34,280 nucleotides of DNA from Candidatus Zipacnadia bacterium (GTDB lineage: Bacteria > Armatimonadota > Zipacnadia > Zipacnadales > UBA11051): NCBI GenBank assembly GCA_029821145.1, contig JALGTY010000006.1:1-34280 (forward strand), read 5' to 3'. The position numbers and the translations under genes were made by a program. This document shows positions 3,844 through 31,972 of the stretch, one piece after another. Position 1 is the first letter of the stretch, and each line of letters opens with the position of its first letter. The notes below the pieces were generated by a model. The model was not told the origin of the DNA and searched no databases. It saw only the letters and a list, made by a program, of their open reading frames with translations.

Positions 3844-5522
3844 CAGACGACGAGTCCGGTAACAAGCACCAGTAGCGGAACGATGACAGCCGATATCAGT
3901 ATAGCTAGATTCCTCTGCGCAGTAGCCAGTGTCATTGTGCGGTCCAGTGGCTCGTGCGGTGGAATGGTCACCAGTTTATCGTTCTTCGTCAGCCAGGCGA
4001 ATGAGCTGGTGGCCAGGAAGATGTTGCTGGGCAAAGGCCGGTACAGATCGTCACGGATAAAATCGTAATCGCCGATGGCCACGATCCGCGCCTTGCGCTC
4101 ATCAGATTCAGGTGGCGGCGGCGCGCCCGGGAATTGCGGCGGCGGCTCTTCGCGGCTCAGATCAATGGCAACAGCCAGTGCCAGGGGTCCGCTCATCTCA
4201 TCGGGGTCTTTGGACACCGGGCCGGAGGTGCTGGTCTCCAGCCAGGCGGAGCCGGTTGATTCAAGCATGGCCGTGGCTGGTGTGGGTGGAGGCGGCGGCG
4301 CTCCCGGGCCAGGCATCGGCGGCTCTGGGAACTCGACTTCAAAACCCACGCAGGTCGGCAGGGCAACCATCGCCAAGTTGTCCACGATGTCATGGCCCTG
4401 CGGCTGAACTACAGCTGGCACCGAGGGGTTGCCCTGAAAAGCGCGCGCTGGGTCCATCACCAGGCCGGTCAGCGGGCGAACCCCGTAAGGCTCCAGAATG
4501 TCGGCGAAATTCGGCGCTGGCGGTGATGCCAGCGCTAGAAACAGATTGCCCCCCTGCTCCAGATACTGTCCGATCGCCTCCGTTTCCTTTTCCAGCAAGC
4601 CCTGCTGCGCCCCGACAATGGCCAGCACCGCGCAGTCGCCAGGCACCTGTGGATCCTTCTCCGTGGACAGTGGGAGACTGGCGACCTCGTACTGCTCGTT
4701 TTCGAGATAGCGCTTCAGCACTGTAAGGCCCCGCTCGCCGAATGCATCAAGGTTCTGCTCGCCATGGCCGGTCAGGAAATATACCTTTGTCTTCTCGCCG
4801 GTTGTCACCGCTAGTATCGCGCTTGACATCTGCTCTTCGGTGCCGCCTTGCACCTCTTCCTTACGCTTCTCGGTCTCAACGAAGATGGTCCCATCGAAGG
4901 GCCGGTCGTACTCCTCAACCTTCTCCAGCGCCAGCTTCGGGTCGTAGATACGAAGCTCAATGCGCTTAGAGTGGATCTCATACTCATTGAGCATCTCGCG
5001 TATCTGGTCGGCGTTGTACTGCTCGGGAGAGATGAAGGCGGTGATCGTTACGTCTTCTTCGAGGTCTCTGATTATGTCCAGTGTCCCTGGGGCCAGGGAG
5101 TGGAGCTTTGCCTCCGACCAGTCCGCCCGGAACATGTGATGCCGCCCCGCGATGTAGTTGGCCATCACGATTATGCCGATCACAAAGACGGTGAACAGCA
5201 CGGAGTTCAGCACTGCCTGGAAGCCACGTGCCTGCACCTGTTTGACAACGGCCGTGATGTTAGTCACCAGCCAGAAAATGACACCAACCAGCCCCAGGAC
5301 AAGCAGCACCTTCGGCGCTGTACCCAGCGTCTTGGTGATGCCGGTCCAGAACAGACCTATCAACAGCGCCGCCAGACCAACCCATGCGGCGATCTTGCCT
5401 GCCAGCATCAGCGCGGATCCGGGCGCAGCTTCAGCAACAACCAGACGCGGGTCAGGAAGCTCCTGTCTGGCGGCATCGCCGTCCATACTTGAATCATCCA
5501 CATGGTTTTCCCGTTCGCCCAT
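3828..5522 (-). CDS. GldG-like ABC-type uncharacterized transport protein
   Basis: 564 aa; N-terminal TMs, 'VYFLTGHGEQNLDAFGERGLTVLKRYLENEQYEV', C-terminal TM 'LILISAVIVPLLVLVTGLVVWWRRR'; typical GldG_ABC_2 layout. Confidence 0.85.
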   Translation of the reverse strand: MGERENHVDDSSMDGDAARQELPDPRLVVAEAAPGSALMLAGKIAAWVGLAALLIGLFWTGITKTLGTAPKVLLVLGLVGVIFWLVTNITAVVKQVQARGFQAVLNSVLFTVFVIGIIVMANYIAGRHHMFRADWSEAKLHSLAPGTLDIIRDLEEDVTITAFISPEQYNADQIREMLNEYEIHSKRIELRIYDPKLALEKVEEYDRPFDGTIFVETEKRKEEVQGGTEEQMSSAILAVTTGEKTKVYFLTGHGEQNLDAFGERGLTVLKRYLENEQYEVASLPLSTEKDPQVPGDCAVLAIVGAQQGLLEKETEAIGQYLEQGGNLFLALASPPAPNFADILEPYGVRPLTGLVMDPARAFQGNPSVPAVVQPQGHDIVDNLAMVALPTCVGFEVEFPEPPMPGPGAPPPPPTPATAMLESTGSAWLETSTSGPVSKDPDEMSGPLALAVAIDLSREEPPPQFPGAPPPPESDERKARIVAIGDYDFIRDDLYRPLPSNIFLATSSFAWLTKNDKLVTIPPHEPLDRTMTLATAQRNLAILISAVIVPLLVLVTGLVVWWRRR

Positions 5523-5614
5523 TACGCTTCACCTGCCCGAAGGAGGTTGACACTCTGTTTGTACCGACAACGGGTACACGCGCGTCCAGTTCCCTTCGTC
5601 TTTGATTTACCAGT

Positions 5615-6328
5615 TCAGACTGTGCGACGGTTTTCTATGGCGCGTACACTCATGAACAAGAATATGATCGCCAGACTCACGAAGAAGAGCAAATTCTTGC
5701 CATCCACAATGCCGCGCGCAAAATCGCCGAAGTTTTCGTAGATAGAAATGCGCTTAGCGATATCGGTAACCCAGCTAGTGGAGGAATACCCCAGAAAGCC
5801 AACCAACCAGAAGAACAACAGAATTGTAGTACTGATAAGCCAGGCCGCGATCTGACTGTCGGTGACGGAGCTGGCGAAGGTGCCGATGGCCATGAAGGCT
5901 ATGCCACAGGCCAAGAGCCCAATATAGCCGGCGGCGATCATGCCCCAGTCAGGATTGCCCCAGATTTCGTACATTATGGGGAACTCCAGGGTCACTGCCA
6001 GAATTAAGCAATACACGGCGACGGCAGCGATGAATTTGCCCACGATCACTTCGGCGTCGCGTATCGGCTTGGTCATCAGCAGTTCGATCGAGCCGCTGCT
6101 GGTCTCCTGGGCGAGCAGCCCCATCGTCAAGACAGGAGCCAGGATCAGGCCGATGAAAACCATACTTCCAAACAGTGGCCCCATCTCCGCCGCTGTGTAG
6201 CCGGTGGCAATTGCCAGTGTGAAAATGAAGCCGCAGATAAACACGAAGAAGAATATGGCTACGTAGGCAAGCGGCGATACGAAATAGCTGCGGATCTCGC
6301 GGCCAGCAATGGTAATGATGTTGCGCAT
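5615..6328 (-). CDS. ABC-2 / GldF-like permease
   Basis: 237 aa, six hydrophobic segments, 'AQETSSGSIELLMTKPIRDAEVIVGKF' motif of ABC-2 permeases. Confidence 0.88.
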   Translation of the reverse strand: MRNIITIAGREIRSYFVSPLAYVAIFFFVFICGFIFTLAIATGYTAAEMGPLFGSMVFIGLILAPVLTMGLLAQETSSGSIELLMTKPIRDAEVIVGKFIAAVAVYCLILAVTLEFPIMYEIWGNPDWGMIAAGYIGLLACGIAFMAIGTFASSVTDSQIAAWLISTTILLFFWLVGFLGYSSTSWVTDIAKRISIYENFGDFARGIVDGKNLLFFVSLAIIFLFMSVRAIENRRTV

Positions 6329-6330
6329 GT

Positions 6331-7269
6331 CTAAGCTACACCCTTCTCCTCGGTCGTTAGGTAACGGAATACGTCTTCGAGACTCATGTCAATGGCGCGC
6401 AGTTCCAGCAGACCCCAATCGTTCTTGACAATGAACTTGGCGACCTCACTGCGCATATCCGCATCAATTTCGGTGTCCACATAGTATGTCCCGGCCTCGC
6501 CCCGCACCGGCTCTACTCCCGTTATCCCCTCCAAGTCACGCAGTAGGCGTGGCACAGCGTCTGAGGGTTCGCCGACCTTGACCAGTATCGTCTGAGCCTG
6601 GCGCAACTGTGCGGTGAGCGCTTCCGGGGTGTCCTCAGCGACGATCTCGCCGTGGTTGATAATGATTACGCGCTCGCAGGTGGCCTGTGCCTCCGGCAGA
6701 ATGTGAGTGGAAAGCATAACGGTGTGGTCGCCGGCCAGGCTCCTGATTAACTCCCGCACCTGCCTGATCTGGTTAGGGTCCAGACCGAGGGTGGGCTCGT
6801 CGAGGATAAGGATGTCGGGGTCGTGGATGAGTGCCTGGGCCAGGCAAACGCGCTGCCGGTAGCCCATCGAGAGGTGGTTGATGATGTCGTCGTACCGTTC
6901 CTCAAGCCCGCACGTCTCGACTACCCGTTCCCGCGCTTCCCTGATCTGTGCACAGGACATTCCGTACAACTTGCCGCAGAAGCTAAGGTACTGATTTACC
7001 CGCATGTCAGGATAGAGCGCCGGGGTTTCTGGCACATAGCCGATGTGACGGCGGGCCTCGACTGACTGGGTGTATATGTCGTAGCCCGCGATCTCAGCAC
7101 TGCCTGCCGAGCCGGGCATGAAGCCGGTGAGGATGCGCATTGTGGTGGTCTTGCCGGCGCCATTAGGCCCAAGGAATGCAACAATTTCGCCCGCACCCAC
7201 CTGGAAGGTCACATCGTGGATAGCCCGGTGCGCACCGTAGTACTTGGTCAGACCCTCAACGCGAATCAT
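6331..7269 (-). CDS. ABC transporter ATP-binding protein (GldA/CcmA type)
   Basis: Walker A GPNGAGKTTT, signature LSMGYRQRV, Walker B ILILDEPTLGLDP; start placed at MIRVEGLTKYYG (7269). Confidence 0.95.
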   Translation of the reverse strand: MIRVEGLTKYYGAHRAIHDVTFQVGAGEIVAFLGPNGAGKTTTMRILTGFMPGSAGSAEIAGYDIYTQSVEARRHIGYVPETPALYPDMRVNQYLSFCGKLYGMSCAQIREARERVVETCGLEERYDDIINHLSMGYRQRVCLAQALIHDPDILILDEPTLGLDPNQIRQVRELIRSLAGDHTVMLSTHILPEAQATCERVIIINHGEIVAEDTPEALTAQLRQAQTILVKVGEPSDAVPRLLRDLEGITGVEPVRGEAGTYYVDTEIDADMRSEVAKFIVKNDWGLLELRAIDMSLEDVFRYLTTEEKGVA

Positions 7270-27963: not shown

Positions 27964-28024
27964 GGCAAAGCGTGTAGCATCCCGCGACGTCGGTTTGCAG
28001 CGTTCATGGAAAGGGGCGTGGAAG

Positions 28025-29432
28025 GTGAGCGAGCGGATATTGGCTATTGTTGCCCTAATCAGCCTACTTCTCCCTGCCGTAGTGTTTTCCCAGCCCGGTG
28101 TCACTATCGGGCCGGCTCCCGATGACATGGCCAAATACCCCGGAATCGAGCCGTGGATGCTTAGCGGCGAAATCAACTTCCACCTCGAAGGCTGGTGGAT
28201 CGGCGGCTACAGCCAAAAGATGATGGTGAAGTGGGCCGACCACGATGTCTTCGTCAAGGACTTGACCCAGATGCAGAAGATGTACCTGTGGGAGAAGATG
28301 ACCCCGGCACAGCGGGCGCAGATGAGCGAGGTTTACGGCAGCACCTCGATGGGTGGCATGCTTGGGTATTTGAAGAACAGGCCCGCCGACTGGGGACCTG
28401 AACTCAATGAACGCATCGTCGAATACCAACGCGGAGTAAGCGGCTGGGCCGAGGTGCGCAAGAACGCCCAGCGCAAACATACGCCCCCAGAGGTCTTTCA
28501 ATTCCTGGATGACAAAGCTAAGTTCATTACGCAGAACAAGGACAAGCTGAAGCCCGAAGACATCACCAAGATTAACGAGGGCGCCGAAGCCGTGGAGAAG
28601 CTTGGGCAGATGATCGCCGTCCTCGAACTGAAGAAGATCGAGATCGCCGTGAAAGGCCTCTCCGGGGGTCTTATTGGCATAATCACCGATTACTGCACGG
28701 GCTTTGCTACCCACGGCGCGCATTACGTCAGTGACGCCATTGCCACTGTCGTGAGTAAGATTATTGATCTGGGCAAGAATGCCGCCAACAAGTCTCTATC
28801 GCCGGGAGAACAGATACAACTCATCAACCAGCAGCTTGACCTTGCCAGAGGTACACTCAAGCAGGAGATTGCGGATCAGCGCGCCATGTGGGCTGCATTG
28901 CTGGGTGAGGACCCTGCGGATGAGCCTCCGGCCGGCCCCGTCGAGCTCTCGATCCTGTTTCTGGTTGACTGCAGCGGGAGTATGGGCGGATCCAAGATCG
29001 AAGCAGCCAAGCAGGCCGTGGTTAACTCGGTGAAGCGGGAGTATGGGCGGATCCAAGATCGAAGCAGCCAAGCAGGCCGTGGTTAACTCGGTGAACCAGA
29101 CCAACGACGGCAAGACCGAATGGGCGCTACTCGGGTTCGGAGGCGGATGCACATGCTGGCAGGTTGTTCCCTTTACCACCGACGCTGGCGCAGTGCAGTC
29201 GGCGGCCAGTGGCCTTGACGCCGGCGGCGGCACGCCCCTCACCTACGCGATATATAAGGCCACAGCCTATCTCGTCAAGAACGGTCACGGGAAGACCGGG
29301 CGGCTGATCGTGCTTTGTGATGGTGAGAACAATTGTGGAGAGCGTGCGGAAGGTGGCCGCAGCGAGGCCGCGGCCGGGCTGCGCAGTATCATCAGCACGC
29401 ATAATCTGGCCGCGCCCGTTCAGCAGCCATGA
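28025..29432 (+). pseudogene. Secreted vWA-domain protein (paralog 1), frameshifted by a 61-bp tandem duplication
   Basis: Signal peptide VSERILAIVALISLLLPAVVFS; frame opens 28025-29086, then the vWA continues in another frame (ORF 29043-29432); removing 61 bp restores one frame that aligns end to end with paralog 2. Confidence 0.85.
28973..29095 (+). repeat. Exact tandem duplication, offset 61 bp (62-nt match)
   Basis: 28973-29034 is identical to 29034-29095 (AGCGGGAGTATGGGCGGATCCAAGATCG...AACTCGGTGAA). Confidence 0.97.
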
Positions 29433-29502: not shown

Positions 29503-30810
29503 ATGATGAGCAGCCGAATCCCACAGTTGCTTATTGTGTTCTGCTGCCTGAGCCTGCCCGCTCCGGTATTCACACAGGGCGATACCACAATCGGCCCAGT
29601 AGATCCAAACGCGCCATCCGGTACTCCCCTTTGGATGTATAGTGACGAGATCGAGTTTCACCAAGAGGGTCTCGTCTTCCCTGGTCGCATAAGCACCGCC
29701 ATGATGGTTAAGTGGGCCGGCCACGATATCAAGATCAAAGACCTCACCCAGGAGCAGAAAACGTACCTGTGGAACAAGACGTCGCCCCAACAGCGCCAGC
29801 AGTTGAACAATGAGTATGGCAAGATCGGCTTTGGCATGGGCGGCTATTTGCAGCAGCGGCCGGACGAATGGGGCAAGATTATCAATGAATGTATGGCTGA
29901 GTATCAACTCGGCGTCAACGGTTGGGGCCAAGTCCGGCAGCAGAACCTCAATAAACACACGCCACCGGAAGTAAAGCAATTTCAAGACGATAAGGCTGAG
30001 TTCCTCAAAGAGAACCAGAAGACACTGCAGCCTGGGGATATCGGCAAGATCGAGAAGGGCGCCGAAGGCATCATCCAACTGGGGCAAATCATCGCGACGC
30101 TGCAGGCCAAGAAGGTTGCTGTGGCGGTGAAAGGCCTGTCTGGGGGCCTGTTGGGCATCATCACTGACTACTTCAGCGGCTTTGCCACCTCGGGGGCGCA
30201 GTACGCCAGTGACGCGATTGCCACGCTGGTGAGCAAGATTATTGACATGGGCAAGAATAGCGCCAACAAGTCTCTCTCCCCCGCGGACCAGCTCGCCCTA
30301 CTCAACAAGCAGATTGAAGCCGCTAAGCAAGCTCTGAACAACGAGATCGAGAAGCAAAAGAAGTTGTGGGCGAGCATGCTCACGGTCGAGATCTCCATGT
30401 GCTTTTTGGTTGACTGTAGCGGCAGCATGGACGGGCAAAAGATAGAGCAAGCCAAGGCCGCGTTGATAGACGCGGTCAACCAGACCAATGATGGCAGGCA
30501 CGAATGGGCCCTGCTGGGCTTTGGCGGCGATTGCATGTGTTGGGAAGTGGCCAGTTTTACCACCGATGCCGCGACGATGCGTTCAGCGGCTCAGGAACTT
30601 AGAGCAAACGGCTCGACCCCGCTAAGGCTCGCCGCATATAAGGCGACAACTTACTTAGTGAAGAACGGTAATGGCAAAGAAGGGCAGTTGATCATACTTT
30701 GTGACGGGGAGGATACCTGCCACGCTAACGCGGGCCAGGAAGACCCGGCGCGTACGCTGGTAACAATCACGAGTTACCACGATACCACTCGAGGTGGCCA
30801 ACAGCCATGA
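29503..30810 (+). CDS. Secreted vWA-domain protein (paralog 2), vWA fold lacking its C-terminal strand/helix
   Basis: 435 aa; signal peptide; MIDAS DCSGSM, GSTPL, CDGEDTC; ends '...ARTLVTITSYHDTTRGGQQP' before the usual 'I.tIGf' segment; RBS GGGGAGG upstream. Confidence 0.85.
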   Translation: MMSSRIPQLLIVFCCLSLPAPVFTQGDTTIGPVDPNAPSGTPLWMYSDEIEFHQEGLVFPGRISTAMMVKWAGHDIKIKDLTQEQKTYLWNKTSPQQRQQLNNEYGKIGFGMGGYLQQRPDEWGKIINECMAEYQLGVNGWGQVRQQNLNKHTPPEVKQFQDDKAEFLKENQKTLQPGDIGKIEKGAEGIIQLGQIIATLQAKKVAVAVKGLSGGLLGIITDYFSGFATSGAQYASDAIATLVSKIIDMGKNSANKSLSPADQLALLNKQIEAAKQALNNEIEKQKKLWASMLTVEISMCFLVDCSGSMDGQKIEQAKAALIDAVNQTNDGRHEWALLGFGGDCMCWEVASFTTDAATMRSAAQELRANGSTPLRLAAYKATTYLVKNGNGKEGQLIILCDGEDTCHANAGQEDPARTLVTITSYHDTTRGGQQP

Positions 30811-31457
30811 GAATACCAAACACTCTCGTGACCTCATTACTGGCGCTGCTTCTGTTTGCTGCGGTATGTGCGGCTGAGATTGTGGACCTGACGGCTCCCA
30901 ACGAGACCCTCGAAGATGCGATGAAGGAAGCGCAGGCGGCAATGGCCAACAGTTCGATGAAGATCAGTATTAACACCATCGGGTTCGACTTGACCCCCGG
31001 TTCGGAGGCCGAGAACTACCTGCAGGAGCTTTCGCAGATCGGCGGCGGGTCGTACTTCGCGGCGTCCGACAGCGGCCAACTGACCGCGGCAATGGCCGGC
31101 GCAGCGACAGGCCAGACCTCCACCTATGGGAACACACCACAAGTCACTAGCCCGACGAACGGTGAACAGGTCGGGCCCAGCACCCTGGTCATCGGCAGAG
31201 CCCAGCCGAACTCGGTTGTCGTAATCCAAACGGAGGTATATGACCAACTCGACGGCCAATTCATTAAGATGGTGCCCGGCCACCGCCATGCGCCCAAGCC
31301 AGACGGCAGCTTTGAATTGCTGATCGCCACACCGCTGGTGTCATTTGGCGAGAAGCGCCCACTGCGTTACGAGATCCATGTCTTCACTGTCACACGCGAT
31401 GGCGATAAGTCACCACACGCTATTATCACCGTACAGCAGAGGTCGCCAACACCTTAA
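30807..31457 (+). CDS. Secreted protein: vWA C-terminal segment plus beta-sandwich-like domain
   Basis: 216 aa; own signal peptide; 'MKISINTIGFDLTPGSEAENYLQELSQIGGGSYFAASDSGQLTAAM' is the canonical end of a vWA domain; ATGA overlap with the upstream gene. Confidence 0.85.
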   Translation: MRIPNTLVTSLLALLLFAAVCAAEIVDLTAPNETLEDAMKEAQAAMANSSMKISINTIGFDLTPGSEAENYLQELSQIGGGSYFAASDSGQLTAAMAGAATGQTSTYGNTPQVTSPTNGEQVGPSTLVIGRAQPNSVVVIQTEVYDQLDGQFIKMVPGHRHAPKPDGSFELLIATPLVSFGEKRPLRYEIHVFTVTRDGDKSPHAIITVQQRSPTP

Positions 31458-31534: not shown

Positions 31535-31972
31535 ATGAGAACCCGTTTTGTCGTGATGCTCACCTGCATTGCGGTGGCCATGTCAGTCGCCGTACGTGCA
31601 GCCGACACCACTGAACCGATAGCTAAGCTGCCTGCTGAGGGCGAGGCGCCAATCGTCAAGAGCCCCCAGAAAGGTGACACTATCGGTCCCAGTACTCTGG
31701 TCGTCGGCGTGGCTCCGCTCGGGTCGCTGGTTGTGATCCAAACCCAGATCTATGACACGCTGGATGACGCCAAATACTACAGAATGATCCCAGGTCATCG
31801 TCATAGAGTGAACCCTGATGGCACTTTCGCGCTGCTGATATCCACCCCGCGAGCGTTCTTCTGGGAACAGCGCCCGCTTCGCTACGAAATCCACACATAC
31901 ACAGTGACGGCGGACGGCAAGGAGTCGCCGCACGCGATCGTCGTCGTAAACCCTAAACCACCGACTCCATGA
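31535..31972 (+). CDS. Secreted single beta-sandwich-like domain protein, paralog of the C-terminal domain of 30807-31457
   Basis: 145 aa; signal peptide; shared 'GPSTLV.G.A...S.VVIQT..YD.LD....MIPGHRH...PDG.F.LLI.TP......RPLRYEIH..TVT.DG..SPHAI..V......PTP'. Confidence 0.85.
   Translation: MRTRFVVMLTCIAVAMSVAVRAADTTEPIAKLPAEGEAPIVKSPQKGDTIGPSTLVVGVAPLGSLVVIQTQIYDTLDDAKYYRMIPGHRHRVNPDGTFALLISTPRAFFWEQRPLRYEIHTYTVTADGKESPHAIVVVNPKPPTP

Follow-up and report, generated by a model that had tools for sequence, protein, structure and literature searches.

Here, we describe a conserved natural split of a von Willebrand A (vWA) domain, in which two separately exported proteins would very probably rebuild a single vWA domain outside the cytoplasm. 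The pair is encoded in a 34,280-nucleotide stretch of a Candidatus Zipacnadia contig, referred to below as the window. ORF1 (P0001) supplies a variable N-terminal module and the N-half of the vWA domain, running from β1 to β4/α5 and including all of the MIDAS ligands, and ORF2 (P0002) supplies the C-half, from β5 to α7, together with an anchoring or binding module, namely an Ig-like domain in WS1-type Armatimonadota and a transmembrane helix plus an FHA domain in Acidobacteriota.

Both genes belong to an operon (Table 1) whose position is constant within the genus, with fabZ on one side and the DegT gene on the other, and whose remaining members, an ORF1 paralogue upstream (ORF1a) and a secreted protein consisting of the Ig-like domain alone downstream (ORF3), had been overlooked by the sequence-only reading that preceded this analysis. 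Orthologues of ORF3 sit behind ORF2 in G001-G004, and the Ig-like domain that ORF2 and ORF3 share occurs in the majority of the order's genomes as well as in a few of the class, mostly within other proteins. Two further observations concern the surroundings of the operon: in G002 (L056) it is followed by three consecutive DegT-type aminotransferase homologues, where the window has one, and a minus-strand ORF at the contig end (33818-34276) consists of imperfect ~25-residue repeats (GEPGLMLHDEAGE.RASLSL..).

Table 1. Features of the split-vWA operon, in coordinates of the window
Feature	Coordinates	Strand	Description
Operon setting		+	At window end, flanked by lpxB-lpxA-fabZ (minus strand) and a DegT-type aminotransferase gene; neighbours named by reading the sequence
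ORF1a, upstream ORF1 paralogue	28025..29432	+	Signal peptide, helical N-domain, vWA N-half
61-bp-period perfect tandem duplication	28973..29095	+	62 identical bases; copies begin at 28973 and 29034
ORF1 (P0001, 435 aa)	29503..30810	+	Signal peptide, helical N-domain of no known family, vWA N-half
ORF1 vWA N-half	30379..30807	+	β1, α1, β2, β3, α2, α3, β4, tail helix (α5)
ATGA start/stop overlap of ORF1 and ORF2	30807..30810	+	
ORF2 (P0002, 216 aa)	30807..31457	+	Own signal peptide, vWA C-half, Ig-like β domain
ORF2 signal peptide	30807..30875	+	Signal-peptide-like segment, aa 1-23
ORF2 vWA C-half	30903..31115	+	aa 33-103: extra helix, β5, α6, β6, α7
ORF2 Ig-like β-sandwich	31128..31454	+	Seven strands; lineage-specific, without a Pfam family
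ORF3 (P0003, 145 aa)	31535..31972	+	Signal peptide and the Ig-like domain of ORF2 alone; final operon gene

The upstream paralogue ORF1a is 55% identical to P0001 and its vWA segment ends at the same point. Its frame is broken because of a perfect 61-bp tandem duplication inside the gene, so that it appears as two ORFs (27995-29086 and 29043-29432), with GTG 28025 as the probable start. The orthologue is intact in G002 (467 aa, L056) and in G003, and the window and G002 give equal dN/dS before and after the duplication (0.19 and 0.20), which suggests that the repeat is an assembly artefact or a very recent change and that ORF1a is functional.

The division of the fold is apparent when the two proteins are compared with the vWA profile. 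As the sequence-only reading had claimed, the MIDAS of P0001 is complete, with D304, S306 and S308 in DCSGSM, T372 in GSTPL and D401 in LCDGEDTC all present, and the corresponding positions are invariant in a 13-row alignment of ORF1-type proteins (A1; D10, S12, S14, T77 and D106); because these metal residues are invariant, ORF1-type proteins probably keep metal and ligand binding. The same reading placed the end of the ORF1 vWA domain before its last strand and helix, and here the truncation stands, PF00092 covering P0001 at profile positions 3-117 of 174 only (with a score above the Pfam cut-off), while the missing part proves larger and comprises β5, α6, β6 and α7. A complete single-chain α/β fold is absent from ORF1, and the remainder is encoded by ORF2. 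When the two are joined in silico, PF00092 coverage extends from 3-117 to 3-169 and the score rises from 32.2 to 39.9 bits, whereas three control joins, made with two hand-made scrambled tails and one ORF2 Ig segment and thus not a formal shuffle series, score 30.5-31.1 bits and leave the coverage unextended. A second genome of the order shows the gain on joining as well (26.4 to 34.2 bits), as does an Acidobacteriota pair (54.1 to 61.6 bits). With the chimera as query, distant continuous vWA proteins span the junction (G086, 2-180; G056, 3-180; G062, 2-179), the match in G086 being one ORF of 448 aa. A profile of ORF2 searched against all PDB sequences with hmmsearch returned a single match, a 'VWFA domain-containing protein' aligned over the C-half only; single-sequence PDB matches to ORF2 had been discarded as nanobody noise. 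The N-domain of P0001 has no Pfam match, and among the PDB fold matches listed for this protein only the vWA part is aligned.

Both vWA halves carry export signals, judging by their sequences. The hydrophobic N-terminus of ORF2 reaches a 12-residue Kyte-Doolittle maximum of 2.98, compared with at most 1.74 in the rest of the protein, and a signal-peptide-like N-terminus is found on all 16 ORF2 proteins, 14 of 14 WS1-type and two of two from Acidobacteriota. In these respects (the ATGA overlap, the second signal peptide, and an ORF2 that opens with the end of a vWA domain and continues into a β-rich domain) the sequence-only description of the locus is borne out.

Homologue searches covered 101 relatives and then 291 Armatimonadota genomes. 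Of the 41 genomes of the WS1-like order, 14, spread over families f1, f2, f3 and f5, have the ORF1-type half, and exactly these 14 have the ORF2-type half. In every one of them the two halves are separate, adjacent ORFs in a fixed order and are broken between α5 and β5. No close match covering both halves in a single ORF was found in the 291 Armatimonadota genomes, the only continuous proteins being distant vWA proteins. For ORF2, dN/dS lies at 0.12-0.16, with 0.155 for the window against G002 (0.175 for its vWA part), and the adjoining lpxA gives a yardstick of 0.16; by these ratios, taken with those of ORF1a, purifying selection is shown to act on both halves. The mirror-tree correlation of the halves is modest (r 0.39, p 0.02).

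This distribution bears directly on whether the pair is simply a single vWA gene disrupted by a frameshift, a sequencing error or recent pseudogenisation; a simple frameshift had been discounted by the sequence-only reading on account of the signal peptide between the halves. The frame-breaking 61-bp duplication 400 bp upstream suggests that errors may be present in this region, but the identical break, with an intervening signal peptide, is conserved in 14 genomes and recurs in a second phylum, the frame offsets and spacers differ between genomes, and dN/dS stays near 0.15 to either side of the break. With no continuous close relative among the genomes searched and selection not relaxed, we take this explanation to be refuted and its residual probability to be negligible. 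The sequence-only reading had also pointed to homologous loci with the same breakpoint as a check, and these exist, each half having its own signal peptide; the continuous homologue that it had named as contrary evidence was not found among close relatives in the 291 genomes.

The form of the junction varies. The ORFs overlap by 1-4 nt in nine genomes (the window, G004, G005, G006, G024, G026, G029, G037 and G038) and are separated by a spacer of ~58-102 nt in five (G001, G002, G003, G012 and G013). The frame relation of ORF1 to ORF2 varies too, and in G012 (L076) the two share one frame across a 102-nt spacer with stops between. A ribosome-binding-like GGAGG precedes many ORF2 starts, and in several genomes the final codons of ORF1 (GGA GGT ...) look like they double as the ORF2 ribosome-binding site, which may account for the Gly-rich tails of ORF1 proteins. 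These features also weigh on recoding, whereby a programmed frameshift or stop read-through would yield one fused protein. Such a mechanism could draw on the ATGA overlap in the window and several relatives, and on the single frame shared by both ORFs in L076 and L080; against it, the frame relation changes among genomes, spacers extend to about 100 nt and can contain more stops (L076), the fused domain would enclose a hydrophobic signal peptide, and the GGAGG motif stands ahead of many ORF2 starts. A fused product is thus extremely improbable, and because junction type and frame relation vary between genomes, both a sequencing frameshift and conserved recoding are excluded.

Structure prediction was applied to a natural pair from the order, L076, which was submitted to AF2 as one chain with its stop codons (TAG) read as Q, so that the ORF1 half is followed by 34 residues, the signal peptide and ORF2. 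The alignment had 12 rows, of which one was the L080 read-through pair and the others were unpaired halves. The pLDDT is mostly 94-97 in the ORF1 half and 86-94 in the vWA half of ORF2, and 33-50 in most of the linker. The model places strands at 4-11, 40-48, 51-59 and 99-106 and helices at 19-34, 62-70, 80-94 and 120-132 in ORF1, followed in ORF2 by helices at 214-227, 245-257 and 268-280 and strands at 232-239 and 262-265. As WS1-type pairs have a helix both at the tail of ORF1 and at the start of ORF2, one of the two must be non-standard. Compared with the PDB by Foldseek, the composite aligns over ~290 columns, across the linker and both halves, onto single I domains (1mhp_A, TMt 0.76, 3.5 Å; 1mf7, TMt 0.76, 3.2 Å); normalised to the whole query the TM-score is only about 0.40, because the query also takes in the linker, the signal peptide and the Ig domain. 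The mature ORF1 of the window modelled alone, by comparison, contains the first four vWA strands only, at a pLDDT of about 70-93, and matches single vWA domains with a TMt of at most 0.58.

That an ORF2-type C-half completes the sheet of an ORF1-type protein is thus well supported by modelling, for a homologous pair folded as a single read-through chain, and in that model the C-half does complete the Rossmann-like sheet, contrary to the co-fold that the sequence-only reading had named as evidence against it. The difference between the L076 composite and ORF1 alone is what fold complementation predicts, in a model of one chain made by a network that knows the vWA fold. It counts against the assembly reading that a single chain raises the effective concentration of the halves and that AF2 would favour completing a known vWA fold, as do the modest mirror-tree correlation and the observation that the ORF1a paralogues are without a C-half of their own. 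Taken with the conserved split, the joint model lends computational support to the earlier proposal that the exported halves complement each other's fold.

A vWA domain cut at this same place also occurs in a second phylum. In a scan of one genome per species, the best six matches were four Armatimonadota of the order and, from the Acidobacteriota, the MAGs L080 and L081, all with an identical point of truncation. In L080, ORF1 (4597-6396) ends in '...LNLIVLSDGEETCEKPDAPAAAVRAINQ*', and ORF2 (6406-7194) consists of a signal peptide, 'KINLILVGYDIENN...' (β5 to α7), then a linker rich in glycine followed by a membrane helix and an FHA domain (PF00498, 58.6 bits). The gene after ORF2 is a Ser/Thr protein kinase, identified by reading the sequence, and L081 has a layout like that of L080 as far as the FHA gene. 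Directly upstream of the L080 pair there is a second vWA gene (L080:3426-4610), which is continuous and has a membrane helix. The C-halves of the two phyla align with an hhalign probability of 69 (E 4e-5), and the WS1 and Acidobacteriota split groups are adjacent in a tree built from 90 vWA N-halves, with a support of 97/74, just under the strict mark; a single origin plus transfer is favoured by the tree. No Acidobacteriota split pair beyond L080 and L081 was found in 396 evenly drawn genomes of the phylum and 119 relatives.

These results also allow us to weigh whether the halves are partners at all, since the vWA segment of ORF1 might be short yet self-sufficient and the ORF2 segment might serve otherwise, for example in binding another protein. 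The ORF1a paralogues of the window, G002 and G003 are indeed truncated with no C-half directly behind them, and truncated ORF1 passes the Pfam cut-off and gives a fairly confident model on its own. Nevertheless, we regard independence of the halves as improbable, given their co-occurrence in fixed order in 14 of 14 genomes, the exactly complementary PF00092 coverage, the complementary cut in a second phylum, and the fact that ORF1 alone is left without a sheet edge and scores below the composite against whole vWA domains.

Around the two halves, the attached modules are exchanged. The N-domain of ORF1 is helical in the window (ORF1 and ORF1a) and in the G002 and G003 orthologues, and coiled-coil-like in G012, G026, G037 and G038. 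In L060 and L061 it is a Zn_dep_PLPC domain (PF00882; 39.4 and 38.3 bits, cut-off 26.8), a family not matched in ORF1 of the window, and the Acidobacteriota ORF1 proteins look phospholipase-type, as judged by eye only. The vWA C-half of ORF2 is constant and is partnered either by the Ig-like domain or, in Acidobacteriota, by a membrane anchor and FHA domain. In G024 (L064 ORF2, minus strand, 46-720) the C-half is joined to a different β-rich domain that is not Ig-like, which means that the anchor portion of ORF2 also varies. Two ORF1 genes precede one ORF2 in the window, G001, G002 and G003, and the homologue search detected no other C-half in the window's genome.

The simplest reading of the preferred assembly is a dock, with ORF2 as the socket and ORF1 as the plug, in which the MIDAS of the completed vWA domain may bind a ligand. 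Translation of ORF1 and ORF2 would be coupled through the ATGA overlap, and both halves would cross the membrane via Sec and be processed. Their association would be non-covalent, since the mature ORF2 of the window has no cysteine, and it would finish the sheet beneath the MIDAS such that ligand is bound by the assembled pair only. ORF2 could then act as a constant socket for alternative ORF1 plugs, of which some operons have two, and the Acidobacteriota dock would signal to the cytoplasm via its FHA domain. As a more specific and tentative model, we suggest a modular plug-and-socket system in which one ORF2 receives interchangeable ORF1s and the MIDAS becomes ligand-competent only once assembled, so that docking is sensed, the Acidobacteriota ectodomain being wired through the membrane helix to the FHA domain and the neighbouring Ser/Thr kinase. 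We infer that a docking or sensor role is more likely than simple adhesion, because the Acidobacteriota version has transmembrane and FHA parts. Within the same assembly, complementation might be purely structural, with a MIDAS that binds nothing exchangeable and a split that ties an ORF1 enzyme or stalk to the ORF2 anchor. The varied ORF1 N-domains (Zn_dep_PLPC in L060 and L061, coiled-coil or helical elsewhere) beside a constant ORF2, and the membrane anchoring of the Acidobacteriota ORF2, would suit this sub-case, but ORF1 proteins preserve each of the five MIDAS positions, which speaks for a metal and ligand function that is still in place, and we consider the sub-case possible but rather unlikely.

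If the assembly reading is true, the pair would be a switch of natural origin in which two proteins assemble into a metal-dependent binding domain outside the cell, and would be usable as a fold-complementation model and tool, such as a two-part reporter or dock; some 'truncated vWA' annotations may then be one half of a pair. We found no description of a split vWA of this kind in the open-licence literature. A vWA domain ordinarily folds as one unit, and the joined halves share fold, element order and MIDAS with the canonical vWA/I domain (PF00092/PF13519; integrin α I domains 1mf7 and 1mhp; bacterial VWA_2), from which the window pair differs in being two proteins, each with a signal peptide, cut between α5 and β5. 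In chaperone-usher pili, donor-strand complementation completes the incomplete sheet of a secreted protein extracytoplasmically with part of another protein. The predicted ORF1/ORF2 assembly resembles this in that the sheet of one secreted protein is finished by a second, but donor-strand complementation involves a single strand, an Ig fold and a polymer, whereas two strands and two helices of a Rossmann-like domain would be contributed here in a predicted one-to-one pair. Calcium-channel α2δ subunits are encoded by one gene and cut proteolytically outside an intact vWA domain, and in archaeal ArnB the vWA domain is whole, within one protein. The α2δ arrangement, with two chains from one gene and the vWA domain intact, contrasts with that of the window, where there are two genes and the vWA domain itself is split. 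It nonetheless provides a case of a vWA protein existing as two chains (PMC9901441, PMC5043047). ArnA (FHA) and ArnB (vWA) are presented as interacting proteins (PMC6509490), a partnership of vWA and FHA domains that may be compared with the FHA-bearing ORF2 of Acidobacteriota.
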